Assembly (NCBI GenBank): GCA_013373085.1
Contig: JABXIM010000156.1
Coordinates: 1 to 51,456, forward strand
Length of the DNA: 51,456 nucleotides
From: Oceanospirillaceae bacterium
GTDB taxonomy: Bacteria > Pseudomonadota > Gammaproteobacteria > Pseudomonadales > Balneatricaceae
Direction of reading: 5' to 3'
Under the pieces are notes generated by a model. It saw only the letters and a program-made list of their open reading frames with translations. It was not told the origin of the DNA and made no database searches. The translations under genes and the position numbers were made by a program. Each line of letters starts with the position of its first letter. The stretch's first letter is position 1. Positions 9,498 through 22,139 of the stretch are shown in pieces.

Positions 9498-10793
9498 TCA
9501 GTGCCGGTGCACGCGCAGGTCGAGAAAATGCACCGAACAGGAGATGCAGGGATCGTAATTTCGGATCAGGCGCTCGGCGAAAAATTGCAACTCCTGGTCG
9601 CTGTGTTCCAGCCCGAATGCCGTGAGGCCGCGCATCAGGTCCGCCTCGATCCGGGCCTGGTTCTGGCTGGTCGGTGGGATGATACAGGCTTCGGTGATGA
9701 AGCCTTCCGGGTCGAGGCCGTAGTGATGGTAAATCAGGCCCCGTGGCGCTTCGGTGCAGTGCGCTCCCCATCCTGCCCGCGGTTCGTCCGGCACCGAGAA
9801 GGCTTGCGCCGCATAGCCGCTCAGCAGTTGCCGCGCCTCCCAGACTGCGTAATAGCACTCCAGCGCCCGCGCCAGCAGGCTGTGATAGATGTTGTCGCTG
9901 GGAAAGTGAAGTCCGCAGTCATCCGCCAGTGCACGTACCTCGGCCGGAAACTGTTCGAAGTTGAGATTGATGCGGGCCAGCGGCCCGACCAGGTAGGGCT
10001 CGCCATCGAGCAACGAATAGAGCGCGGTGCTGTGCGGCTCCTGGTGCTCACGAAAGTGCTGCCGGTAATCGCAGGCATCGATATCGAGTCCGTCACTGCT
10101 GCAAACCCGGCCTTCATTCATCGCATACTGCGTCGGATGATGCAGGGCCACGCTGGTAAAGCTGGCATGATCATCGGGCAGATCGAGACCCGCAGCCCAG
10201 CGCACCAGCGCCTCGGCATCCACCAGCGCCTCGTCGATGCGCGGCAGCAGAGCGGCGATGACGTCGGCTGCCGGGGCGTTATGGAAACCGCCGACTTTGA
10301 GTCCGACCGGGTGCACCGAACGACCGCCACTGAGGCTGATCAGGTCATTGCCCAGCGCTTGAAGTCTCAGTCCGCGTTTCACCGCCTGCGGATGGACCTT
10401 TGCCATATCCAGCATATGTGAGAAGCCGAGGAAGTCCGGCAGGGCCAGGAAGTGGATGTGCAATGCATGGCTCTGCAGCCACTCGCCGCACTGCAGTACG
10501 CGCCGCATGCGGCCGATCCAGTCGCCGGACTCCAATCCAAGCGCCCGCTCGATCGCCCTCACGCCGGTCATCTGGTAGGCGATGGGGCAGATACCGCATA
10601 TCCGCGCGGCGATGATAGGCTGCTCGCTGTAGTGCTTGCCCTCGAGAAATTTCTCGAAAAATCGCGGCGGCTCGAAAATACGCAGCACCGCGCGTTCGAG
10701 CTGCTCATCACGGCAATACAGCTCCAGTGCCCCCTCCCCTTCGAGCCGGGTGATAACGGGCACACGCAGACGGATATTACGGGGATCGGTCAT
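9498..10793 (-). CDS. hydA: [NiFe] hydrogenase large (alpha) subunit, group 3b type
   Basis: 431-residue catalytic subunit carrying the NiFe(CN)2CO site. The proximal motif RICGIC gives Cys66 and Cys69, and the distal motif DPCISC gives Cys416 and Cys419, together the four nickel ligands. After His422 a nine-residue tail (FLDLRVHRH) remains; in this family such a tail is removed by a maturation endopeptidase, and a suitable gene lies at 18228. Length and the DPCISCSVH ending match cytoplasmic NAD(P)-linked group 3b enzymes (sulfhydrogenase HydA). Residue 73 after the first motif is Tyr, where membrane-type hydrogenases have His. Start ATG 10793 is chosen because the family N-terminus (...RVPVITRLEGEG) begins here; the frame extends 88 codons upstream without homology. 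It is separated from hydBGD by a protease gene and has its own promoter. Confidence 0.93.
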   Translation of the reverse strand: MTDPRNIRLRVPVITRLEGEGALELYCRDEQLERAVLRIFEPPRFFEKFLEGKHYSEQPIIAARICGICPIAYQMTGVRAIERALGLESGDWIGRMRRVLQCGEWLQSHALHIHFLALPDFLGFSHMLDMAKVHPQAVKRGLRLQALGNDLISLSGGRSVHPVGLKVGGFHNAPAADVIAALLPRIDEALVDAEALVRWAAGLDLPDDHASFTSVALHHPTQYAMNEGRVCSSDGLDIDACDYRQHFREHQEPHSTALYSLLDGEPYLVGPLARINLNFEQFPAEVRALADDCGLHFPSDNIYHSLLARALECYYAVWEARQLLSGYAAQAFSVPDEPRAGWGAHCTEAPRGLIYHHYGLDPEGFITEACIIPPTSQNQARIEADLMRGLTAFGLEHSDQELQFFAERLIRNYDPCISCSVHFLDLRVHRH

Positions 10794-10842
10794 AACACAA
10801 TGACGGCCATTCGGGTTGATGGACAGATTCCTCACTGCACTC

Positions 10843-10884
10843 AATATAGCCGGGAGCGCCAACTGGCGCCTTGACCCAGGTCGC
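10843..10884 (-). promoter_or_regulatory. Predicted activator-dependent promoter of hydA
   Basis: Reading leftward: GCGACCTGGGTCAA (10884-10871), 22 nt, then TATATT (10848-10843). The palindrome-like box would be centred at about -41.5 for a start near 10836, giving a leader of about 43 nt. The box and the 22-nt gap repeat those of the hyp promoter near 15843-15884. The spacing is that of class II FNR/CRP-family activation. The box matches FNR consensus imperfectly (GAC/GTC in place of GAT/ATC), so the regulator is inferred. Confidence 0.5.
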
Positions 10885-10898
10885 TCCCTCCCTATGCT
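10871..10898 (+). promoter_or_regulatory. Possible sigma70 promoter for the serine protease gene
   Basis: TTGACC (10871-10876), 16 nt, TATGCT (10893-10898), 87 nt before the protease ATG. Its -35 overlaps the hydA box, so binding there could affect both genes. Confidence 0.35.
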
Positions 10899-10984
10899 TA
10901 TTGAAGGCAGTATCGAATGGCTCGAAGCCCGGTACCTTTGTTCGGCCTTACCGACCACGGGCGCCGCAACCCGGAGGAACCACC

Positions 10985-12511
10985 ATGAAATTGTCAGGGA
11001 TTGCCCGCACACCGCAGCGACCTGGTTGCACTCAAAGTACCGTTCCCGGCAAGACCACAACGCACCTTTTCCCCGCCGCGAAGGTCATGCTGGTCAGTGT
11101 GCTGGGACTGGCCGCTCTGGGTGCCGGACCGGTTGTGCAGGCGGCGCCGAACCCCGCTGCTGAAGCGGCCAAGGCCAGGGTTGTAAAGCACTGGACGCCC
11201 GAGCGCCGGGCCGCGGCCATTCCCCGTGACCTGGTGATCGACCCGCGCGGACTCGGGTACCTGAAAATGCCCGATGGTTCGTTGCGGCCGTATGGTCATG
11301 ATGTGGCGGCGACACCATTTGCTGGCCCCCCCAACAGCGGCGACTCCACACCTCCGAATATCGTCATGAACAGCCCCGCTGAAGGCGCAGAGATCGGGAC
11401 GTCCGCGACCTTTTCGGCTGACATTACCGATAGCAGCGGTATCAAATCGGTATCATTTGTCATCCTGTACCCGAACGGCAGCACCACCCAGAGTTTCACA
11501 CCCGCTCAGACTGCTGGCACCGATACCTGGAGTACCACCCTGCAAGGTTTCAGCGATGGCGACTGGGCCTGGTCAGTGACCGCCAAGGACAGTGCCGGCA
11601 AGGGTGGCAATACCGCCACAACCGACTTTTCCGGCTTCACTGTGAATTCCGGTGGCGGCAGCAGTGGAAATAACACCGGAGGTAATGGCGACACTGTGGT
11701 AAATGGTCACTGGAGTTATGGGGGGGGTGTCCAGACGGCCGCCGGCCGTATCTACTTCGAAATGCCATCCAACGCCAAGCTCAAGGGCCCTTGGAATGGT
11801 TATGTCTGCTCCGGTACCGTGGTCACGGACGAAACAGCTGGACGCTCGGTAATTCTGACCGCTGCACACTGTGTGTACGATGACGCCAACAAGGCATTCG
11901 CGAAGAACGTACTGTTTATCCCAAACCAGGATGAAACGACGGGATCAGGCACAGACCTCAACTGCAACAATGACCCGTTGGGCTGCTGGATACCTGAGTT
12001 CGGTGTGGTCGACGCGAACTGGACGACCAGTACCTTCCCTGACAACATTCCCTGGGACTATGCCCACTACGTCGTGCTCGACGAATCACTCGAGGTGGAC
12101 GCAGGATCCCTGCCGTTGAGCTTCGACCCGCCCGTCGTCGATGACGGCACGGACGGCGCCGGCAGCCCTGACTTCACCCATGCCCTGGGCTACTCCTACA
12201 GCGATGATCCCAACTTCATGTACTGCGCAGAGGACATGACCACCGAAGGCACAGATAACTGGTGGCTGCCGAGCTGCGGCTTATCCGGCGGCTCCTCCGG
12301 AGGTCCATGGGTCCAGCCGATGGATACAAGCACCGGCAGCGGAGCGGTGATTTCCGTCAATTCCTGGGGTTATACCACCTCACCCGGTATGGCAGGACCC
12401 AAACTGGCAGGCACCTCGGCCTCTTGTGTGTTTGAAGAAGCGAAGATGAACCTGGACGACTGGAGTGGTGTCGCGGACGGCGAAGCCGGTGTAGCCATCA
12501 TCTGCGAGTAA
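10985..12511 (+). CDS. Secreted trypsin-like serine protease with Ig-like domain
   Basis: 508 residues from ATG 10985, which follows GGAGGAAC at ideal distance; the frame is open further upstream but without a site. A long signal peptide ends near AQAA (about residue 53). A bacterial Ig-like domain follows (about 120-220, STPPNIVMNSPAEGAEIG), then a Gly/Asn-rich linker (221-240), then a chymotrypsin-fold peptidase. The catalytic triad is visible: His295 in LTAAHC, Asp358 in WDYAHYVVL, Ser438 in GGSSGGPW. Paired Cys residues suggest disulfides, consistent with an extracellular location. The gene sits between hydD/methyltransferase and hydA on the opposite strand, an unexpected place. It is unlikely to act on the cytoplasmic hydrogenase. 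Substrate is unknown. Confidence 0.88.
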   Translation: MKLSGIARTPQRPGCTQSTVPGKTTTHLFPAAKVMLVSVLGLAALGAGPVVQAAPNPAAEAAKARVVKHWTPERRAAAIPRDLVIDPRGLGYLKMPDGSLRPYGHDVAATPFAGPPNSGDSTPPNIVMNSPAEGAEIGTSATFSADITDSSGIKSVSFVILYPNGSTTQSFTPAQTAGTDTWSTTLQGFSDGDWAWSVTAKDSAGKGGNTATTDFSGFTVNSGGGSSGNNTGGNGDTVVNGHWSYGGGVQTAAGRIYFEMPSNAKLKGPWNGYVCSGTVVTDETAGRSVILTAAHCVYDDANKAFAKNVLFIPNQDETTGSGTDLNCNNDPLGCWIPEFGVVDANWTTSTFPDNIPWDYAHYVVLDESLEVDAGSLPLSFDPPVVDDGTDGAGSPDFTHALGYSYSDDPNFMYCAEDMTTEGTDNWWLPSCGLSGGSSGGPWVQPMDTSTGSGAVISVNSWGYTTSPGMAGPKLAGTSASCVFEEAKMNLDDWSGVADGEAGVAIICE

Positions 12512-12594: not shown

Positions 12595-13056
12595 TTACAA
12601 CCAACGCCGCACCGATTCCCGGTAGCGATGAAAGTCTTCCCCGAACTTCAGCGCCAGAAACCGCTCTTCCGGCTGGATCTGGAAGCGGTTCATGTAGAGC
12701 ACGAAACCGGGCAGCACCGGCAGTGTAGCGAGGTTCGCCAGCCACAGGGCCCAGGCGGTCAGCAACAGCAGCAGTCCGAGATACATGGGGTTGCGGCTGA
12801 AACGGTAGACCCCGTTCGTCACCACCTGGCTGGCCTGACCGGGATCGACGGGGTTGACGGTGGTACCGGCCCGGCGGAACCGGGCAACCGCAGCGAGACC
12901 GGTGGCCAGGGCGACGACGGCCAGTCCGGCGGCAAGATACCCGGACGCGGCAAGATTGAATCCGGTGGCGGGAAATTGCACCGCCAGCCACCACATAGCC
13001 GCTCCGCAGATCAGCACCTGAGCCACCGGCGGTATTCTGAGTTCCAAGAAATTCAC
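12595..13056 (-). CDS. Isoprenylcysteine carboxyl methyltransferase-like membrane protein
   Basis: 153 residues with about four membrane helices (about 10-30, 42-62, 95-115, 118-130). The C-terminal half has the signature of the ICMT/phospholipid methyltransferase superfamily: GVYRFSRNPMYLGLLLLL followed by EERFLALKFGEDFHRYRESVRRWL, which in relatives forms the S-adenosylmethionine site. It is probably a SAM-dependent methyltransferase, with substrate unknown in bacteria. The start is GTG 13056 with AAGG just upstream. It lies 3 nt behind hydD, so it should be the last gene of the hydB-hydG-hydD transcript. Whether it has anything to do with the hydrogenase is unknown. Confidence 0.8.
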   Translation of the reverse strand: MNFLELRIPPVAQVLICGAAMWWLAVQFPATGFNLAASGYLAAGLAVVALATGLAAVARFRRAGTTVNPVDPGQASQVVTNGVYRFSRNPMYLGLLLLLTAWALWLANLATLPVLPGFVLYMNRFQIQPEERFLALKFGEDFHRYRESVRRWL

Positions 13057-13059
13057 ACC

Positions 13060-13851
13060 TTATGAATCCAGTTGTTTCGCCGGTATGCGCCAGCGCGCCC
13101 AGGCTTTCTGGTATGGCTCCAGCCCCGAACTGATCGACACGAAACGCTCCGCTACCTGCCGCTGCGGGATCCCGAGCCCGACCAAACGCTCCCCCAGTGA
13201 ATCGCAGTTGGGCTGTTCCGACGCGCCGAAGCAAGTGTAGCAGGGGGCGCCGAAAGACGGGCACAAGGCACCGCAGCCGGCCCGCGTCACCGGCCCCAGG
13301 CAGGGTGCCGCCTTCGTCACCAGCACGCAGACGTTGCCGGCGCGCTTGCACTCCTGGCACACCTTCTCGGTCGGCAAAACCGGCGGTACGCCCTGCAGCA
13401 ATGCCCGCACCGTGGCGATCAGCTGGCGACCGCTGATCGGGCAGCCCCAGAGTTCCAGGTCGACCTTCACCAGTTGCGCCACCGGGCGGGACTCGGCCAG
13501 CGAGTCCAGGTACTCGGTATCGGCATAGACGGCGCCGGCCCAGCCGACGGAATCCTTGACGTTGCGCAGCGCCTGCACCCCGCCGCTGCAGGCGCAGGCG
13601 CCGATGGCGACGACGAAGCGCGAACGTTCGCGCACTTTCAGGATACGGGCTTCGTCGTCCGGCGTGGTGATGCTGCCCTCGACAAAGGCGATATCGACCT
13701 CGGCGTCGAAGTTGTTGAGCCCGGCTTCGATAAAGTGGCTAATCTCCACCAGTTCGTTGAGCACCAGCAGGTCGTCGCCGAGGTTCAGGAACACCGACTG
13801 GCAGCCGGAACAGGACGTCAGCTTGTGAACCGCAATGCTTGCCTGCGCCAT
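13060..13851 (-). CDS. hydD: [NiFe] hydrogenase small (delta) subunit
   Basis: 263 residues. Carries the iron-sulfur clusters that pass electrons from the large subunit. The proximal cluster ligands are visible as CSGC (Cys14, Cys17), the Cys in GACACSGG and the Cys in LWGCPISG. A C-terminal Cys-rich segment (VCQECKRAGNVC, then CGALCPSFGAPCYTCFG) supplies the further 4Fe-4S clusters. There is no twin-arginine signal, so the enzyme stays in the cytoplasm, as expected for group 3. The ATG directly follows the TAA of hydG (TAAATG), indicating translational coupling. Length is as in group 3b delta subunits. Confidence 0.92.
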   Translation of the reverse strand: MAQASIAVHKLTSCSGCQSVFLNLGDDLLVLNELVEISHFIEAGLNNFDAEVDIAFVEGSITTPDDEARILKVRERSRFVVAIGACACSGGVQALRNVKDSVGWAGAVYADTEYLDSLAESRPVAQLVKVDLELWGCPISGRQLIATVRALLQGVPPVLPTEKVCQECKRAGNVCVLVTKAAPCLGPVTRAGCGALCPSFGAPCYTCFGASEQPNCDSLGERLVGLGIPQRQVAERFVSISSGLEPYQKAWARWRIPAKQLDS

Positions 13852-14682
13852 TTAATAGCCCTCCAGCAGAAACCAGTCCCGCACGTCCGAGACACGGAAT
13901 ATCGGTCCGTTCTTGCAGATAAATGGAGACCCCATCTGACAGTGGCCGCAAAGCCCCAGCGCGCACTGCATGTTGCGTTCGAGGCTGAAGTAGCAGTTGT
14001 CCATGGCAACGCCATTGTTCTCCAGCGCACGTATAGAGGCACGCATCATCGGTTCCGGGCCGCACATCATCACGGTGGAATTGAGCGGATCGAAGCGGGC
14101 CTTGTCGATCAGCGTCGTGACCATGCCCAGTGACCAGGCAAAGGGGACCTTCGCTTCTTCGCTGGCCGCCAGCAGCACTTCGCAGTCAGGCACCTCGCGC
14201 CAGCGGTCGTACTGCGCCTGCCAAAGCAGGTCTTCGGAATGCTTCACCCCTTGCATGATGATCAGGCGGCGATAGGCATCGCGTTCGGCAATCGCCCGCC
14301 GGATGGCCGCGATCACCGGTGCGCAGCCGAGCCCGGCGGTAATGAACACCAGGTCCCGGCCCCGCGCTGCCTCGAGCGGCCAGCTGTTGCCGTAGGGTCC
14401 GCGCAGGCCGATCATGGCGCCCGGTTCCAGCGCCACCAGCTTGCGACTGACCCGCCCCACCGCGCGGATGGTGTGCTGCAGGCAACCGTCCTGATAATCC
14501 ATGATCGATATCGGCACTTCGCCGAGACCGAACAGATAGAGCATGTTGAACTGTCCGCAGGCGAAGCGGTACTGCTGCTGCACCTCGGGATCAGTGAAGC
14601 GCAGCGACAGCGTCACCACGTCCGGCGTTTCCACGACCCGTTCGACCACCCGTGCGGAGTATGGAGTCCAGGGATCGTTCAT
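13852..14682 (-). CDS. hydG: Hydrogenase gamma subunit, FAD/NAD(P)-binding oxidoreductase
   Basis: 276 residues from ATG 14682, which overlaps the hydB stop in an ATGA. It is a ferredoxin-NADP reductase-like flavoprotein. FAD-binding residues lie around FACGQFNMLYLFG and IRAVGRVSRKL. The NAD(P)-binding half starts at LVFITAGLGCAPVIAAIRRA and includes MMCGPEPMMRA. The C-terminal CALGLCGHCQMGSPFIC binds a 2Fe-2S cluster, as in dihydroorotate dehydrogenase PyrK and sulfhydrogenase gamma. It links H2 oxidation to NAD(P) reduction or the reverse; NADP versus NAD preference cannot be read here. This symbol follows the sulfhydrogenase naming and is not the radical-SAM HydG of [FeFe] enzymes. Confidence 0.9.
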   Translation of the reverse strand: MNDPWTPYSARVVERVVETPDVVTLSLRFTDPEVQQQYRFACGQFNMLYLFGLGEVPISIMDYQDGCLQHTIRAVGRVSRKLVALEPGAMIGLRGPYGNSWPLEAARGRDLVFITAGLGCAPVIAAIRRAIAERDAYRRLIIMQGVKHSEDLLWQAQYDRWREVPDCEVLLAASEEAKVPFAWSLGMVTTLIDKARFDPLNSTVMMCGPEPMMRASIRALENNGVAMDNCYFSLERNMQCALGLCGHCQMGSPFICKNGPIFRVSDVRDWFLLEGY

Positions 14683-15785
14683 GACTCGCCAACCTCGCGG
14701 CAGAGACGCTCCGCCTCCTCGACGATATCGATGCCGACCGGGCACCAGGTGATGCAGCGCCCGCAGCCGGTACAGCCGCTGCGATCATACTGGTCGTGCC
14801 AGATTGCCAGCTTGTGCGTCAGCCACTGCCGGTACTTGTGCTCGGCGCTCTTGCGCACCACATGGCCGACCAGGTAACTGTGTTCGTCGTTGAAGCAGGT
14901 ATCCCAGCGTCGTACCGCGCGGCTCAGGCTGCCATCGAGCGGGCTTTCCTCGTCGACCCGGTGACAGAAACAGGTCGGGCAGACCGCGGCGCAGTTGCCG
15001 CACGTCAGGCAACGTTCCGCAACCGGCTGCCAGTGCCGCATGTCATCGCGCGCCGCGTACAGAGGGCCGCGCAGATCCCGGGACGGCAGCGCCCGCTGCT
15101 GGGTCCGCGCCTGCTTGCGCAGCGCCTTGGCTCGCCGCTTGTGCCAGCCGCGTACCGGCCGACCCGGCAGCCTGGCGAGCAACTCGGCTCCGCGCTCGCT
15201 GCCGGCCTTTACCAGGTACCCCTGGTCCAGTTCATCGAGCACCAGGTCGGCACCGAATGTGACCTCGGGGCCGTCGCCGGTGGACACGCAGAAACAGGTG
15301 TCGGCACTGCGGTGGCAGTTGACCGCCACCAGCAGCAGCGACTCGCGACGTGCCCGGTAGTGCGGATCGGGGTAGTCGCCATCGAGAAAGTGTCGATCCT
15401 GCAGTGCCAGCGCGGCCAGGTCGCAGGCCCGGACCCCGATCACCGCCGTCGGCACCGGTGTTTCGCGCACCTCCTCGAAACGCAGCCCCCCCTCGACCTC
15501 CCGCGCCACCCAGAGCGGCTGTTCGGCGACGAACAGCCAGGGCTTGAGCCCCTGGGCGGTGCCGACCCAGTCGAAGCGGCGACGATGGTTCTGCTGCTCC
15601 AGCCGGTAGTGCCCGGGCGCCTGTCGATCCACCAGCCCGACCGGGATATCGTCGGCGCTTTCCAGCACGTCATAGGTCAGGGCGCCCTCCTGCTCGGCGG
15701 GGCCAACGACGCGATAGCCTGCCTCGCGCAGCCGTTCGAAAATCTGTCCGAAATCCCCCTGGGGCAGAAATACGCTCTGATCCAT
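14679..15785 (-). CDS. hydB: Hydrogenase beta subunit, 4Fe-4S electron-transfer protein
   Basis: 368 residues from ATG 15785, preceded by CGGGAAC; an in-frame GTG at 15842 is less likely because it would lie upstream of the predicted transcription start. It resembles the sulfhydrogenase/anaerobic sulfite reductase A (AsrA-like) family. Two 4Fe-4S motifs lie in the C-terminal half: CLTCGNCAAVCPTCFC and CTGCGRCITWCPVGI. Further Cys residues lie in GVRACDLAAL and NCHRSADTCFC. It is the first gene of hydB-hydG-hydD and shares a 150-bp divergent promoter region with hypF. It passes electrons between HydG and HydD. Confidence 0.9.
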   Translation of the reverse strand: MDQSVFLPQGDFGQIFERLREAGYRVVGPAEQEGALTYDVLESADDIPVGLVDRQAPGHYRLEQQNHRRRFDWVGTAQGLKPWLFVAEQPLWVAREVEGGLRFEEVRETPVPTAVIGVRACDLAALALQDRHFLDGDYPDPHYRARRESLLLVAVNCHRSADTCFCVSTGDGPEVTFGADLVLDELDQGYLVKAGSERGAELLARLPGRPVRGWHKRRAKALRKQARTQQRALPSRDLRGPLYAARDDMRHWQPVAERCLTCGNCAAVCPTCFCHRVDEESPLDGSLSRAVRRWDTCFNDEHSYLVGHVVRKSAEHKYRQWLTHKLAIWHDQYDRSGCTGCGRCITWCPVGIDIVEEAERLCREVGES

Positions 15786-15815
15786 GTTCCCGGTCCGCTG
15801 CCAACAATTGCCCTT

Positions 15816-15884
15816 AGGATAGTCCAGCGAAATCGAGACCACCTGACCCGGGTCAAGCCCGGCGCAGTCACGACCACCTATACT
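15816..15884. promoter_or_regulatory. Divergent hydB/hyp promoters sharing one FNR-like palindrome
   Basis: The perfect palindrome TGACCCGGGTCA (15844-15855) lies in the box CTGACCCGGGTCAA (15843-15856). Rightward, 22 nt later, is TATACT (15879-15884), giving a start near 15891 and a box centre near -41.5 for hypF. Leftward, 21 nt away, is TATCCT (15821-15816), giving a start near 15808 and again a centre of about -41 for hydB. Neither promoter has a good -35 hexamer, as expected for class II activation. The half-site TTGAC resembles FNR/ANR TTGAT, but the conserved CCGG centre is not an FNR feature, so another activator remains possible. Confidence 0.55.
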
Positions 15885-15934
15885 GCTTTTAAACCAACAG
15901 TCACCGATTGATGCTGAGGGTGCGCCGCGAATTC

Positions 15935-18235
15935 ATGTCACAGCACATTGCCGAAATCCGCATCAGAGGCAGCGTCCAGGGCGTCGGCTTTCGACCCTGC
16001 GTCTGGCAGCTGGCGAAGGAGATGGCGCTCTGCGGCGAAGTGCGCAACGATGGCGAGGGGCTGATGATCAGGCTCTATCCTGCCCGCGCCGCGGCGGAGT
16101 TCCGCTGCCGTCTGGAGTCCAGGCTGCCGCCCAGGGCCGAGGTCGACAGTGTCAGCATGCGGCTCGGTGCCTGCGACGAAGTGCCCGACGGCTTCCGCAT
16201 TCTGGCCAGTGCCCCCGATCCCGGTCATACCCGCATCATCCCCGATCTCGCCACCTGTCCCGACTGTCTGACGGAGCTCCTCGACCGCGACAATCGCCAC
16301 TATCGCTACCCCTTCACCAGTTGCACCCGCTGCGGTCCACGTTTCTCGATCATCGAGCGGCTGCCCTACGACCGCGAGCGCACGGCCATGGCGCCCTTTC
16401 CACTGTGCCGGCGCTGCGCACAGGACTTTCACAACCCGCGCGACCGACGTTTCCACGCCCAGGCGATCGCCTGCCCGGCGTGCGGTCCCCGTGTCTGGCT
16501 GGCGGCGCCGGACGGGCGCATGCTCGAACAGGACGATGCCATCGATGCTGCGGCGCAGCGGCTGCAGAGTGGCGAACTGCTGGCGATCAAGGCAAGCGGA
16601 GGTTTCCACCTCGCGTGCGATGCGCTCGACGCCAATGCTATCGCCCGTCTGCGACGGTTCAAGGGGCGCGCCGACAAACCGCTTGCGGTCATGCTGCCGG
16701 ATGTGACACGGCTGCGGGAACGCTGCGATCCGACCACACCCGAGACAGAGCTGCTGTCCAGTCCCGCCGCCCCAATCGTGCTGGTTCGCGCCCATACGGA
16801 TCGCTGGCCCCCCAACCTGCTGGACGGCCTCGACCACGTCGGCGCAATGCTGCCCGCCACACCGTTGCAGCATTTGCTGCTGACGGCCGTGGGCCGCCCG
16901 CTGGTGATGACGTCCGGCAACCGCGAAGGCTCGCCGCCCTGCCTCGATAACGACGAAGCGCTGTCCGAGCTGGGGCCCGGAGTGGACGCGCTTTTGCTGC
17001 ACGATCGCGTCATCGTGCGGCGCCTCGACGATTCGCTGGCGCAAGTGACGAGCGGCGGACCCCAGTTACTGCGCCGCGCCCGGGGCTATGCGCCCGGGGC
17101 CCTGGCGCTGGGCGAGGGTTTTGCCAGGGCCGACGGCCTGCTGGCCCTCGGCGGCGACCTCAAGAACGCGCCCTGCCTGCTGCAGGGCGGCCAGGCCATA
17201 CTCGGCACGCACCTCGGCGACGTCGCCAACCCGCGTATCCTGCAGCAACTGGCCGACAGCAGCGCGGAGCTTGGAAACCTGTTCGCCAGCCCGCCGCATC
17301 TGATCGCCTGCGATGCACACCCGGGCTACCACAGCCGGGCCCTGGCGACACAGCTCGCCGAGCAACTGCAGGTGCCGCTGATCGAGGTACAGCACCATCA
17401 CGCCCACCTGGCCGCCTGTCTTGCCGAACACCGGTACCCACTCGAAGGATCACCGGTACTGGGGCTTGTCCTCGACGGCAGCGGCCTGGCCCCGGCAGAC
17501 AGCCCGCATCCCCTGTGGGGCGGCGAATTCCTGCTGGCGGACTACCGCCACTGCAAATGGATCGACGGTCTGCCCGCGGTGGCCATGCCCGGCGGCGAGC
17601 GGGCGGCAAGGGAACCCTGGCGCAACCTGCTGGCCCAGCTTGAACGCTGGGCGCCAGACTGGGAGCAGCGGCGTTCGCCAGCCATCGAGGCTTTACACCG
17701 GCGCCCTGTCGACAGCCTCCGGGCGCTGATACGCGAAAGTTTCAACGCGCCACTGGCCAGTTCCTGCGGTCGACTGTTCGACGCCGTTGCCGCATTGCTC
17801 GGCGTGGCGCCGGCATGCAACAGCTACGAAGGCCAGGCCGCCATGCGGCTCGAAGCCCTGGCCCGACAGGCCTCGCCGCAGCCGGTACCGTCGCTGTTGC
17901 CGTCCCCGGGACCGCTGCAGCTGGACGGGCTCTGGCGCCGACTGCTTGGGGAACTCGAACACAGGTCGGCGTCCACTCTGGCGTTTCGCTTCCACCACTG
18001 GCTGGCCGAGCTACTGGCTGCCCGCGCCCTCGATCTTGCCCGGCAATACCGCTGCAACACCCTGGTGCTGGGCGGCGGATGCCTGCACAACCGCCTGCTG
18101 CGAATGGAAATGGAACGGCATCTGCGCGCCGCGGGCATGCGGGTTTTGATTCCGGCCAGGGTACCCGCGGGCGATGGCGGCCTGGCCCTCGGGCAGGCGG
18201 TCGTCGGCTGGGCCCGGGAGAAGGCTCATGCCTGA
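15935..18235 (+). CDS. hypF: Carbamoyltransferase HypF, hydrogenase maturation
   Basis: 766 residues from ATG 15935, which gives the family N-terminus MSQHIAEIRIRGSVQGVGFRP; ATG 15911 in the same frame is possible. It makes the cyanide ligands of the NiFe site by transferring carbamoyl from carbamoyl phosphate to the C-terminal Cys of HypE. Domains in order are acylphosphatase (about 5-90, GSVQGVGFRP), two zinc fingers (CPDC and CTRC, then CRRC and CPAC, about 105-185), a YrdC-like domain (about 200-385, SGNREGSPPC), and a Kae1-like carbamoyltransferase domain (about 400-760, VQHHHAHLAACLAEH and LGGGCLHNRLL). Length is normal. First gene of the maturation operon. Confidence 0.96.
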   Translation: MSQHIAEIRIRGSVQGVGFRPCVWQLAKEMALCGEVRNDGEGLMIRLYPARAAAEFRCRLESRLPPRAEVDSVSMRLGACDEVPDGFRILASAPDPGHTRIIPDLATCPDCLTELLDRDNRHYRYPFTSCTRCGPRFSIIERLPYDRERTAMAPFPLCRRCAQDFHNPRDRRFHAQAIACPACGPRVWLAAPDGRMLEQDDAIDAAAQRLQSGELLAIKASGGFHLACDALDANAIARLRRFKGRADKPLAVMLPDVTRLRERCDPTTPETELLSSPAAPIVLVRAHTDRWPPNLLDGLDHVGAMLPATPLQHLLLTAVGRPLVMTSGNREGSPPCLDNDEALSELGPGVDALLLHDRVIVRRLDDSLAQVTSGGPQLLRRARGYAPGALALGEGFARADGLLALGGDLKNAPCLLQGGQAILGTHLGDVANPRILQQLADSSAELGNLFASPPHLIACDAHPGYHSRALATQLAEQLQVPLIEVQHHHAHLAACLAEHRYPLEGSPVLGLVLDGSGLAPADSPHPLWGGEFLLADYRHCKWIDGLPAVAMPGGERAAREPWRNLLAQLERWAPDWEQRRSPAIEALHRRPVDSLRALIRESFNAPLASSCGRLFDAVAALLGVAPACNSYEGQAAMRLEALARQASPQPVPSLLPSPGPLQLDGLWRRLLGELEHRSASTLAFRFHHWLAELLAARALDLARQYRCNTLVLGGGCLHNRLLRMEMERHLRAAGMRVLIPARVPAGDGGLALGQAVVGWAREKAHA

Positions 18236-18728
18236 TGCAGTCCTGCTCGCCCTCGGCCACCCCGCACGCGGTGACGATGGTTTCGGCGAGCGACTGCTCC
18301 AGCTGTTCGAACAACGCTATGGGGCGCCGGAAGCAGTGCTGTGCCTGTATGGCGGCACGCGGCCGCTGGCTCACTATGACCGCGTCGCTGGCTGCCGCTG
18401 GCTCATACTGCTGGATGCCGTTCACAGCGACAGGACGGGCAGCGGTATCCTGATCGCCGATCCGCTGCCCCGGATCCCCGAAATTCGCCGCATGGCCGTG
18501 CATGAACTGGGCGCCGGCGAACTGCTGCAACTGCTGGCGGCACTCGACGAGGCCCCGGCCCGTATCAGCCTGGTAGGCGCGGCCCCGGTATCCTTCGATA
18601 TGGGATCGACGCTCAGCACTGCGCTCGAACAACTGCTTCCGCAAGCCTGCGATGCGCTTGCCCGCCTGCTGGGTGACAACGGCATCCGGCTGACCCGGCG
18701 GCAAGCCGAGGATGTCGGGCATGCATGA
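18228..18728 (+). CDS. Hydrogenase maturation endopeptidase (HycI/HybD family)
   Basis: 166 residues from ATG 18228, overlapping the end of hypF by 8 bp. The N-terminus LALGHPARGDDGFGERLLQLF is the GNxxxxDDGxG-type motif of nickel-dependent hydrogenase proteases; the position usually Asn is His here. Asp in WLILLDAVHS and His in MAVHELGAGELL match the other metal ligands known from HybD. It should cut HydA after His422, releasing the nine-residue tail once nickel is inserted. It is the only candidate endopeptidase in the window, and HydA the only substrate. The C-terminus is longer than the minimal domain but unremarkable. Confidence 0.88.
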   Translation: MPDAVLLALGHPARGDDGFGERLLQLFEQRYGAPEAVLCLYGGTRPLAHYDRVAGCRWLILLDAVHSDRTGSGILIADPLPRIPEIRRMAVHELGAGELLQLLAALDEAPARISLVGAAPVSFDMGSTLSTALEQLLPQACDALARLLGDNGIRLTRRQAEDVGHA

Positions 18729-19062
18729 GCTGAGCCTGTGCCGCAGTCTGGTCACCACGCTGGAACAGGAAGCCGTGACCCGAGGCCTGACGCGCATCGT
18801 GCGTATCGACCTCGGCATCGGCTGCCTCAGCTGCGTCGAACCCGAGGCGCTGCGTTTCGCCTTCGATGCGGTGGCCAAACCCCAAAGCCTCGCCCGGTGC
18901 GAGCTGGCCATCCGCCGCGTACCGGGGCAAGCCCGCTGTCACGGCTGCGGCCGGCATTACGAGGTGCACCGCTGGCTCGATGTCTGCCCCGGTTGCGGTG
19001 GCGACAGCCGCGACCTCGAGGGCGGCGACGAAATCATGATCGAACAAATGGAGGCCTGCTGA
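18721..19062 (+). CDS. hypA: Nickel metallochaperone HypA
   Basis: 113 residues starting MHELSLC at ATG 18721; His2 is the known nickel ligand, which fixes the start over the frame's earlier ATG 18712. The zinc site is CHGC...CPGC (about residues 72-93). Works with HypB to insert nickel into HydA. It overlaps the endopeptidase gene by 8 bp, and its stop overlaps the hypB start (TGATG). Confidence 0.95.
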   Translation: MHELSLCRSLVTTLEQEAVTRGLTRIVRIDLGIGCLSCVEPEALRFAFDAVAKPQSLARCELAIRRVPGQARCHGCGRHYEVHRWLDVCPGCGGDSRDLEGGDEIMIEQMEAC

Positions 19063-19760
19063 TGTGCGGACACTGCGGTTGCGATACCCAACCACCGGTA
19101 CAGACCCGGGTGATCGACCTGCACCGGGACCTGATGGACGCCAACCACCGGCAGGCGGCGCATAACCGGGCCTATTTTCACCGTCAACGGCTCACCGCCC
19201 TCAACCTGGTTTCGAGTCCCGGCGCCGGCAAGACCACGCTGCTGGAGATAACCCTGCAGCAATTGCAGGGCCGGAGACCGGCACTGGTGATCGAGGGCGA
19301 CCAGCAAACCGAACTCGATGCTGCCCGCATCCGCGCCACAGGCACGCCGGCGGTTCAGGTGCAAACCGGACAGGCCTGCCATCTCGATGCGAGCATGGTG
19401 CACGGCGCCCTGCACGAGCTGCCCCCGGCTCCCGGCGGCCTGCTATTCATCGAGAACGTCGGTAACCTGATCTGCCCGGCCCAGTTCGACCTCGGAGAGC
19501 GGGCACGGGTGGTGCTGGTCTCGGTCACCGAAGGCGACGACAAACCGCTGAAATACCCGGGCATCTTCCGCGATGCGGACCTTTTGCTGATCACCAAGAC
19601 CGACCTGCTGCCCCATGTCAATTTCGATCCGGCCCGCTGTCTCGCCCATGCCCGGCGTATCCGGCCGCAGCTACCCGCGTTACAGCTCAGTGCCACCAGC
19701 GCAGAAGGGCTGGATGGCTGGCTCGACTGGCTGCGCCAGCTGGATACGGAGGGCGACTGA
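19062..19760 (+). CDS. hypB: Hydrogenase nickel incorporation GTPase HypB
   Basis: 232 residues. The N-terminal MCGHCGC is the high-affinity nickel CxxCxC motif of the E. coli type. Unlike rhizobial HypB there is no long His-rich stretch, so a nickel storage role is not expected. The SIMIBI-class GTPase core shows Walker A SSPGAGKTTLL (about residues 48-58), EGDQQTELDAARI, a metal-binding GQACHLDASMV, ENVGNLICPA and the guanine motif TKTDLL. The GTPase acts with HypA to load nickel. Coupled to hypA through TGATG and followed directly by hypC. Confidence 0.96.
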   Translation: MCGHCGCDTQPPVQTRVIDLHRDLMDANHRQAAHNRAYFHRQRLTALNLVSSPGAGKTTLLEITLQQLQGRRPALVIEGDQQTELDAARIRATGTPAVQVQTGQACHLDASMVHGALHELPPAPGGLLFIENVGNLICPAQFDLGERARVVLVSVTEGDDKPLKYPGIFRDADLLLITKTDLLPHVNFDPARCLAHARRIRPQLPALQLSATSAEGLDGWLDWLRQLDTEGD

Positions 19761-20009
19761 ATGTGCCTCGCGGTCCCGGCTCTCGTGATCTCGGTCACCG
19801 ACCCGTCCCGCGCGCTCGCGCTGAGCGACAGCGGCGGTATTCGGCGTGAAATCGACCTCAGCTGTGTGCTCGGCGAAGGTCCGCCCGAGATGCTTGTCGG
19901 CCGTTGGGTGCTGGTCCACGTCGGCGTCGCCCTGGCGCTGATCAGTGACGAGGAAGCCCGGGCCTCGCTGGCGCTCTGGGCCGAACTCGATGACGGAGAG
20001 CGGCAATGA
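19761..20009 (+). CDS. hypC: Hydrogenase assembly chaperone HypC
   Basis: 82 residues beginning MCLAVPALV; Cys2 is the residue that coordinates the Fe(CN)2CO precursor and contacts HypD and the large subunit. The fold is a small OB-like barrel ending in a helix (DEEARASLALWAEL). The ATG follows the hypB stop without a gap, and the stop overlaps hypD (ATGA). It is the only HypC-type gene seen, so it probably serves HydA. Confidence 0.95.
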   Translation: MCLAVPALVISVTDPSRALALSDSGGIRREIDLSCVLGEGPPEMLVGRWVLVHVGVALALISDEEARASLALWAELDDGERQ

Positions 20010-21133
20010 AGTACGTCGACGAATTTCGCGACCCGCAGGTCGTGCAAAGAATGGTTTGCGAAATCGCGGCAACCGCAGCCCGCCTGCCGCCAAGATCGCA
20101 GCCCTGGCAACTGATGGAGGTCTGCGGCGGCCATACCCATGCGATCTTCCGCTTCGGACTCGATCGTCTGCTGCCGGACTGCGTCGAGTTCGTTCACGGA
20201 CCGGGTTGTCCGGTCTGCGTGCTGCCCGAGTCGGTGATCGATCAGGCAGTGGCACTGTCGCAGCGCCCGGACACGTTGCTTTGCAGCTATGGCGATGCGG
20301 TGCGGGTACCGGGCACCGGCGGCAGCCTGCTCGACGCCCGCGCCGATGGCGCCGGCGTCGAGGTGGTCTACGGACCGCGGGACGCACTGGAACTGGCCCG
20401 GCGCCGCCCGGCGAGCGATGTGGTGTTCCTTGCCATCGGTTTCGAAACCACGGCTCCGGCCACCGCACTGGCGCTGCAGACGGCCCGCCGGGAAGGGTTA
20501 CGCAATTTCCGCGTGCTCTGCCACCTGGTGTTGATCGAGCCGCCGCTACGCGCGCTGCTGTCCGATCCGGAACTGCGCATCGATGGATTTCTCGGACCGG
20601 GCCACGTCAGCCTCGTCACCGGCACCCGGCCGTTCGACTTCATCCCGGCCGAATACCGGCGACCGGTGGTCATCAGCGGCTTCGAACCGGTCGACCTGCT
20701 GCAGTCGGTATGGATGCTGCTGCGGCAACTCGAACAGGACGAGGCGAGAGTCGAGCTGCAGTATCGCCGGGCCGCCTCGACAGCCGGTAACCGGACCGCG
20801 CGCGCCGCGATTGACGAGGTATTCGAACCGGCACCGGCGACCGAGTGGCGCGGACTCGGCGCCCTGCCCCACTCCGGCCTGCGGCTCGCGCCAGAATACC
20901 GTGCCTTCGATGCCGCCGAGTTGCTGACTTGCACAGCTCCGGTGCCGGCCGAAACAGACCCGCGCTGCGGTTGCGCCAAGGTCTTGAGCGGCCACATGAA
21001 GCCGCCAGTCTGCCCGCTGTTCGGACGCGAATGCACCCCGGCCTCGCCCCGCGGCCCCCTGATGGTGTCGTCGGAAGGCGCCTGCGCCGCCTGGTACCAG
21101 TATCGACAGGAGACTGCAGATGCCCGCCGATAA
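20006..21133 (+). CDS. hypD: Iron-cofactor assembly protein HypD
   Basis: 375 residues. Holds the iron on which CN and CO ligands are built. Conserved motifs are visible: MEVCGGHTHAIFRFG near residue 40, GPGCPVCVLP near 70, and FETTAPATALAL near 155. C-terminal cysteines in RCGCAKVLSGHMKPPVCPLFGREC bind the 4Fe-4S cluster. Length matches E. coli HypD (373). Overlaps hypC by 4 bp and hypE by 14 bp. Confidence 0.96.
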   Translation: MKYVDEFRDPQVVQRMVCEIAATAARLPPRSQPWQLMEVCGGHTHAIFRFGLDRLLPDCVEFVHGPGCPVCVLPESVIDQAVALSQRPDTLLCSYGDAVRVPGTGGSLLDARADGAGVEVVYGPRDALELARRRPASDVVFLAIGFETTAPATALALQTARREGLRNFRVLCHLVLIEPPLRALLSDPELRIDGFLGPGHVSLVTGTRPFDFIPAEYRRPVVISGFEPVDLLQSVWMLLRQLEQDEARVELQYRRAASTAGNRTARAAIDEVFEPAPATEWRGLGALPHSGLRLAPEYRAFDAAELLTCTAPVPAETDPRCGCAKVLSGHMKPPVCPLFGRECTPASPRGPLMVSSEGACAAWYQYRQETADARR

Positions 21134-22139
21134 ACGCCTGACGCTCGCCCACGGCAGCGGCGGCGAGCCCATGCAGCGCCTGCTGCAGGAGCAGATACTG
21201 CCGCTGTTCGACAACGCCGCGCTCGCGGGCCTGGAGGACCAGGCCCGGCTGTCCCTCGCCCTGGGACCGGGCGAGCGCCTGGCGTTCACCAGCGACAGTT
21301 TCGTCGTCACGCCACTGCGCTTTCCCGGCGGCAATATCGGCAGCCTGGCCGCTACCGGCACCCTCAACGACCTTGTCGTCGGCGGCGCCCGGCCACGTTA
21401 CCTGAGCTGCGCGCTGATCATCGAGGAGGGGCTGCCACTGGCGCTGTTGCGCGAATTGCTCGCGTCGCTCGCCGAAGAGGCCAGGACCGCCGGCGTCCAG
21501 GTGGTGACCGGCGACACCAAAGTGGTGCCGAAAGGGGCCGCCGACGGGCTCTTCATCAACACCAGTGGTATCGGTGTTATCGGTGCCGGGATCGATCCCG
21601 GCACGCATCGCCTGCACCCGGACGTCAAGCTCATTGTCAGCGGGCCGGTCGGCGATCACGGCGCCACCATTCTCGCCTGCCGCCGCGAACTGGCGCTCAG
21701 CGGCGACCTGACCAGCGACTGCGCCAATCTCTGGCCACTGGTCGACAAAATGCTGTCCGAACCCGGCCTGCTGGCCATGCGCGACGTCACCCGAGGCGGT
21801 CTCAATGCCGTGCTGCATGAATTCGCCGCAGCCGCGAACCTCAGTATCGAGATCGACGAAGCGGCGCTGCCGGTGCGCCCTGCGGTGCGCGGGCTCTGCG
21901 AGTTGCTGGGGCTGGATCCGCTGCAGCTGGCCTGCGAGGGCCGACTGCTGGCGGCGGTCGAGGCCGGGGCGGCCGACAGGTTGCTACAGCAGATGCGCGG
22001 TCATCCGCTCGGCGAGCAGGCGGCGATCGTCGGCACCCTGGTGCCGCGTCGCACGACGCCGGTGATCCTGCGGGGCCTCTACGGCGTCGAGCGCAGCCTG
22101 CCGCCGGTCAGCGGCGAGCTGCTGCCGCGCATCTGTTGA
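21120..22139 (+). CDS. hypE: Thiocyanate/cyanide-forming HypE
   Basis: 339 residues. Dehydrates the carbamoylated C-terminal Cys, made by HypF, to thiocyanate using ATP, then gives cyanide to the HypCD iron. PurM/AIR-synthase fold motifs include LAHGSGGEPMQRLL, FTSDSFVVTPLRFPGGNIG, GDTKVV and RDVTRGGLNAVLHE. The chain ends PRIC, with the essential terminal Cys. Overlaps hypD by 14 bp and is the last recognisable gene of the maturation operon; the next gene starts 198 bp on. Confidence 0.96.
   Translation: MPADKRLTLAHGSGGEPMQRLLQEQILPLFDNAALAGLEDQARLSLALGPGERLAFTSDSFVVTPLRFPGGNIGSLAATGTLNDLVVGGARPRYLSCALIIEEGLPLALLRELLASLAEEARTAGVQVVTGDTKVVPKGAADGLFINTSGIGVIGAGIDPGTHRLHPDVKLIVSGPVGDHGATILACRRELALSGDLTSDCANLWPLVDKMLSEPGLLAMRDVTRGGLNAVLHEFAAAANLSIEIDEAALPVRPAVRGLCELLGLDPLQLACEGRLLAAVEAGAADRLLQQMRGHPLGEQAAIVGTLVPRRTTPVILRGLYGVERSLPPVSGELLPRIC

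Follow-up and report, generated by a model that had tools for sequence, protein, structure and literature searches.

A predicted Anr site at class II distance from two divergent hydrogenase promoters in a Marinobacterium-type genome

Between a hydB-like gene and hypF, which diverge within a hydrogenase locus, lies a single box that is, on balance, probably a dimer site for the oxygen sensor Anr, predicted to serve in class II activation of both the hydBGD promoter and the promoter of hypF and the maturation genes when oxygen is low. The 51,456 nucleotides analysed here (the window) make up contig C95 of a genome of 5.78 Mb; the three named loci that match the hydB protein of the window are all from Marinobacterium (amino-acid identity of 87% in M. 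nitratireducens, 78% in M. rhizophilum and 76% in M. sedimentorum), and the genome is of Marinobacterium type. The hydB, hydG, hydD and hydA genes (Table 1) resemble sulfhydrogenase subunits with scores well under the curated NCBIfam cut-offs, and hypF, hypB and hypD each lie above at least one NCBIfam cut-off of their own. We take the enzyme to be a group 3b hydrogenase, and the maturation gene with two AIRS domains is presumably hypE. A second possible in-frame ATG of hypF is found at 15911, and a scan of the window at Rfam gathering scores returned no RNA element.

Table 1. Features of the hydrogenase locus in window coordinates. Spacings are counted from the 14-bp box (for hydB and hypF, 15843-15856), with the -10 taken as -12 to -7; starts are predicted from the -10s.
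Feature	Position	Strand	Remarks
hydA-like [NiFe] large subunit	9498..10793	-	apart from hydBGD in this lineage
hydA -10 TATATT	10843..10848	-	22 nt from candidate box; predicted start 10836
Candidate weaker FNR/Anr box of hydA, GCGACCTGGGTCAA on - strand	10871..10884		8/10
hydD-like small subunit	13060..13851	-	NCBIfam, below cut-offs
hydG-like FAD/NAD-binding subunit	13852..14745	-	NCBIfam, below cut-offs
hydB-like (sulfhydrogenase beta subunit homologue)	14679..15785	-	ATG 15785; best NCBIfam matches ShyB/HydB
hydB -10 TATCCT	15816..15821	-	21 nt from box; predicted start 15809
Predicted FNR/Anr-type box CTGACCCGGGTCAA (hydB strand: TTGACCCGGGTCAG)	15843..15856		9/10 informative letters
hypF -10 TATACT	15879..15884	+	22 nt from box; predicted start 15891
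hypF (carbamoyltransferase)	15935..18235	+	ATG 15935
Maturation genes 3' of hypF: HycI-type protease, hypA, hypB, hypD, two-AIRS-domain gene	18174..22139	+	

A sequence-only reading of this DNA had pointed to a palindrome, TGACCCGGGTCA, at 15844-15855 between the hydB-like gene and hypF, and both letters and positions proved correct. As a 14-mer on the hydB strand, the predicted box is TTGAC-N4-GTCAG and carries nine of the ten informative letters of TTGAYN4RTCAA, the one outer letter that is off consensus being on the hydB side. With the starts placed from the -10s, the centre of the box (15849.5) falls at -41.5 for hypF, near which it had been placed in both directions, and at -40.5 for hydB, the start of which moves from 15808 to 15809. 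The absence of a -35 from either promoter, also part of that reading, was confirmed: the best match to TTGACA is two of six letters for both, at spacers of 15-19, and a consensus scan of 15700-16000 found no sigma-70 promoter. The possibility that the box lies within an ordinary -35/-10 promoter of hydB or hypF was ruled out on the same two-of-six match. Sequence features of an FNR/Anr class II promoter are present, namely a box close to TTGAT-N4-ATCAA, a predicted centre near -41.5 and a -10 without a good -35.

We infer that the box is the binding site of the FNR/Anr oxygen sensor of the genome, the Fe-S dimer of which would occupy it when oxygen is low and would there act as a class II activator in both directions, rightward from -41.5 on hypF and the maturation genes and leftward from -40.5 on hydBGD. 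Because two polymerases would overlap near the -35 regions, a single bound dimer would probably serve the two promoters in turn. Both distances are in use in E. coli, where the site lies no more than 4 nt from -41.5 in 19 of the 23 FNR-activated promoters with known starts that are counted in PMC3688515, and at -40.5 in yfiD and focA-pflB (PMC3688515).

The core of the sequence-only reading, a CRP/FNR-family site serving two promoters without -35s and with FNR/Anr as the candidate regulator, is supported by these results; its description of a single dimer site for two back-to-back promoters as uncommon has to be qualified, since an experimentally studied layout of this kind is already on record for another bacterium. 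According to PMC5398030, one central FNR/Dnr site in Dinoroseobacter shibae stands at -39.5 for nirS and at -41.5 for nosR2, loss of FnrL lowers the activity of the reporters of both genes and loss of DnrD almost abolishes it, and a change of the outer letters of the site left no nirS expression, a mutation result that concerns the nirS direction; the site between hemA3 and dnrE is likewise described as a bidirectional FnrL/Dnr site. The present locus has the same geometry, one predicted site between divergent genes at class II distance from both predicted starts, with TTGAC-N4-GTCAG in place of the TTAAC-N4-GTCAA of D. shibae (PMC5398030). It differs in that D. shibae is an alphaproteobacterium in which, as PMC5398030 describes it, denitrification and heme genes are concerned and several FNR/Dnr regulators are present, whereas here hydrogenase and maturation genes are combined with one clear FNR/Anr. 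Eleven single-site CRP cases between divergent E. coli promoters are listed in PMC3105977, where El-Robh and Busby 2002 is cited for such control; these share with the present locus the use of one CRP/FNR-family dimer for two divergent promoters, but they depend on CRP and cAMP and not, as predicted here, on an oxygen-sensing regulator. In Rhizobium leguminosarum, hypBFCDEX has an FnrN-type promoter (PMC3534401), a parallel to the FNR-type control of hydrogenase maturation genes at low oxygen that is predicted here, whereas the structural genes have a separate NifA promoter, with no shared site described in the available text of PMC3534401. A search of a library of open-access papers brought up nothing recognised as this hydB-hypF promoter. 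In view of the D. shibae and E. coli CRP precedents, the novelty of the layout is modest.

The box on its own is not rare, since ten 14-mers in the window match TTGAYN4RTCAA in at least nine of the ten letters (shuffles: mean 2.5, maximum 7), and such a box turns up in 255 of 20,000 shuffled versions of the 149-nt gap. The exact form TTGAYN4RTCAG is found at 87 sites in the genome versus 18 in the reversed control. Three copies of the exact 12-mer occur in the genome, and the other two were rejected as additional sites, both lying within long open reading frames. When a -10 (four of six letters matching, A2 and T6 required) is also demanded 21 or 22 nt away on each side of the box, a single instance is left in the window and none in 300 whole-window shuffles. 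Across 120 sequences (498,928 bases), many of which overlap or were chosen for containing boxes, 133 boxes of at least 9/10 were counted. A -10 flanks 22 of these on one side or both, and the double layout was found at this locus alone, in two species.

Within the genus, hydB is present in five of seven genomes, and all five, the own genome included, have TATACT toward hypF and TGGACTAT[CG]CT toward hydB. The box is found in two of the five, or in two of the four in which hypF adjoins hydB, the own genome being included in both counts. The other carrier is the closest relative, M. nitratireducens (L016), where the box is TTGATTTCGGTCAG, with half-sites TTGAT-N4-GTCAG, both spacings are retained and the -10s are 57 nt apart as they are in the window. 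Nine of the ten half-site letters are identical to those of the window, the lone change turning the C at the Y position into T, versus 22 of 43 letters outside the box, and three of the four central letters differ; what has been kept is the half-sites, not a perfect palindrome. By our own arithmetic, and for this one relative, the binomial chance of keeping at least nine of ten letters at the flank rate is about 0.01.

The box is missing in the remaining three congeners with hydB, M. rhizophilum (L014), M. sedimentorum (L015) and G032 (L020), all of them more distant than M. nitratireducens. The best 14-mer in these loci reaches 7/10 and overlaps or lies downstream of the hydB -10, the -10s are 44, 56 and 44 nt apart, respectively, and the genomes encode an FNR/Anr with the same ETVSR helix. 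The sequence-only reading had named the loss of the palindrome in close relatives that keep the gene order as telling against it, and such loss is seen in part: the order is retained without the box in M. sedimentorum and in G032 (L112), while M. nitratireducens keeps the half-sites. Control through the box looks lineage-specific. In M. rhizophilum, no hypF match was found in the 6 kb upstream of hydB, where a short start-like remnant and TATACT remain, and a hypF of 44% identity is found on a different contig. From the hydB relatives in 39 genomes of the family, 30 loci were examined, 25 of them from other genera, and none of four box patterns matched in the 300 nt upstream of hydB at these 25 loci, 24 of which are sound, the hydB start of L028 being misplaced. 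At L019, the sequence of which is the same as that of L014, there is one match, at -250 and unconserved.

Judged by its protein sequences, the genome encodes one clear FNR/Anr. A single protein (L005) passes both Crp-family HTH models; it has a C-x2-C-x5-C start (HCSNCTLSSLC, three cysteines) and an ETVSR helix, which together we take to mark the FNR type, and a fourth cysteine, in VCEIP, was read by eye. Each of the seven genomes of the genus encodes a close relative of this protein that also has ETVSR. Perfect TTGAYN4RTCAA sites number 18 in the genome versus 6 in the reversed control. Among the 15 for which sequence context was available are sites that precede ccoN, hemN, a hemerythrin-like gene and cydA, all expected to be under FNR/Anr control, and several that lie inside long frames (e.g., L052, L053, L060 and L061) or before genes not expected under FNR; the names ccoN, hemN, cydA, hemerythrin and histidine kinase, all outside the window, were assigned by eye from protein starts. 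The hemN and ccoN boxes of the own genome have the same TTGACC....TCAA form. The ccoN box matches 10/10 in all seven genomes of the genus; it lies about 320 nt upstream, and the rule applied here finds no -10 at a distance of 20-23 nt. The hemN box stands 22 nt before a -10 in all four genomes having hemN (counted at E<=1e-100, a cut-off at which three of the seven are without it), three of these boxes being 10/10 and one, that of G033, 9/10. The survey of these two genes shows that Marinobacterium boxes do use TTGAC half-sites and that one conserved hemN box is also one letter off. At the hemerythrin-like gene, the box lies 21 nt before TATAGT, so that, with the 22 nt at hemN, both distances occur in this genome. 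A further box, TTGATTTCGGTCAA (L048, site at 1501), lies between divergent cydA and histidine kinase genes; it is one letter different from the M. nitratireducens hydrogenase box and possibly represents another shared site.

It is unlikely, though worth serious consideration, that the box is a real FNR/Anr site that activates one promoter only, most probably that of hypF at -41.5, the other promoter being weak or constitutive, or even inhibited by the dimer on the box. The canonical spacing exists on the hypF side only, the mismatch falls in the half-site nearer hydB, and relatives that lack the box still have both -10s; against this, -40.5 is a functional position in E. coli (PMC3688515), and the 21-nt spacing is kept in M. 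nitratireducens and is present at the hemerythrin-like gene. The retention of the -10s in five of five congeners, with the box in two of five, also fits promoters that depend chiefly on sigma S or on weak, activator-free sigma-70 recognition, beside which the box would be a chance or relic match. The genome has rpoS, and a C directly precedes the -10 in all three hydrogenase promoters of the window (CTATCCT, CTATACT and CTATATT), C just before the -10 being a sigma-S preference; the ten 9/10 boxes of the window likewise speak for chance. We nevertheless regard this explanation as quite improbable, given that the double class II placement was never reached in the shuffles and that in the nearest relative the half-sites have changed less than their flanks.

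FNR is not the only regulator whose sites have the core TGAC-N4-GTCA, and a different dimeric regulator, either another CRP/FNR-family member or an unrelated protein, might use the box, possibly to repress both promoters. Three further proteins of the genome pass HTH_Crp_2 only, and two proteins of M. nitratireducens are more distantly related to Anr (24-26% identity). No E-x-x-S-R helix was seen by eye in those three proteins, however, the hemN and ccoN boxes of the same genome share the form of this one, and a position just upstream of two promoters without -35s suits activation; such a regulator would come as a considerable surprise. Two-way activation by Anr is the explanation that we prefer.

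The reach of Anr may extend beyond these two promoters; hydA also has a candidate box. On the branch of the window and M. nitratireducens, the hydA gene split off by a protease-like gene might have an Anr-box promoter of its own, by which Anr would reunite the hydBGD, hydA and hyp units, a tentative proposal that we consider rather doubtful. The M. nitratireducens hydA has the -10 TATTAT with an 8/10 box also at 22 nt (counted by hand on the alignment), and the candidate box of the window is equalled in 28 of 20,000 shuffles of 10794-10900, upstream of hydA. The candidate box includes TTGACC, 16 nt before TATGCT, likely the -35/-10 pair of the gene on the opposite strand, which could explain the conservation of the box letters. 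In the window, five 8/10 boxes have a -10 at this spacing to one side or both, versus a mean of 0.76 and a maximum of 5 in shuffles, and three of the five are there for no evident reason.

The protease-like gene (10985-12511, + strand), which separates hydD from hydA and runs opposite to both, encodes a trypsin-like and probably secreted protein with the motifs TAAHC and GGSSGGP, identified by eye, and a weak Ig-like domain below the Pfam cut-off. It is matched in the M. nitratireducens locus; no match was found in the three sister loci L014, L015 and L112, where the hydA match starts 3 bases past the end of the hydD match. Directly after hydD lies a PEMT-family methyltransferase gene (12598-13059, - strand), for which no match was found in the four Marinobacterium loci compared.

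Were the hydA proposal true, the locus would be an operon that has come apart and whose pieces a common regulator site keeps together, with the three sister species having an uninterrupted hydBGDA and a promoter without an Anr box. If the box between hydB and hypF works as predicted, one oxygen-sensing dimer would set the output of the hydrogenase and of the builders of its nickel-iron centre, in step. The genus is a natural experiment in this respect: sister species share the two -10s with or without the box, so that a gain or loss of oxygen control can be tested directly in them.
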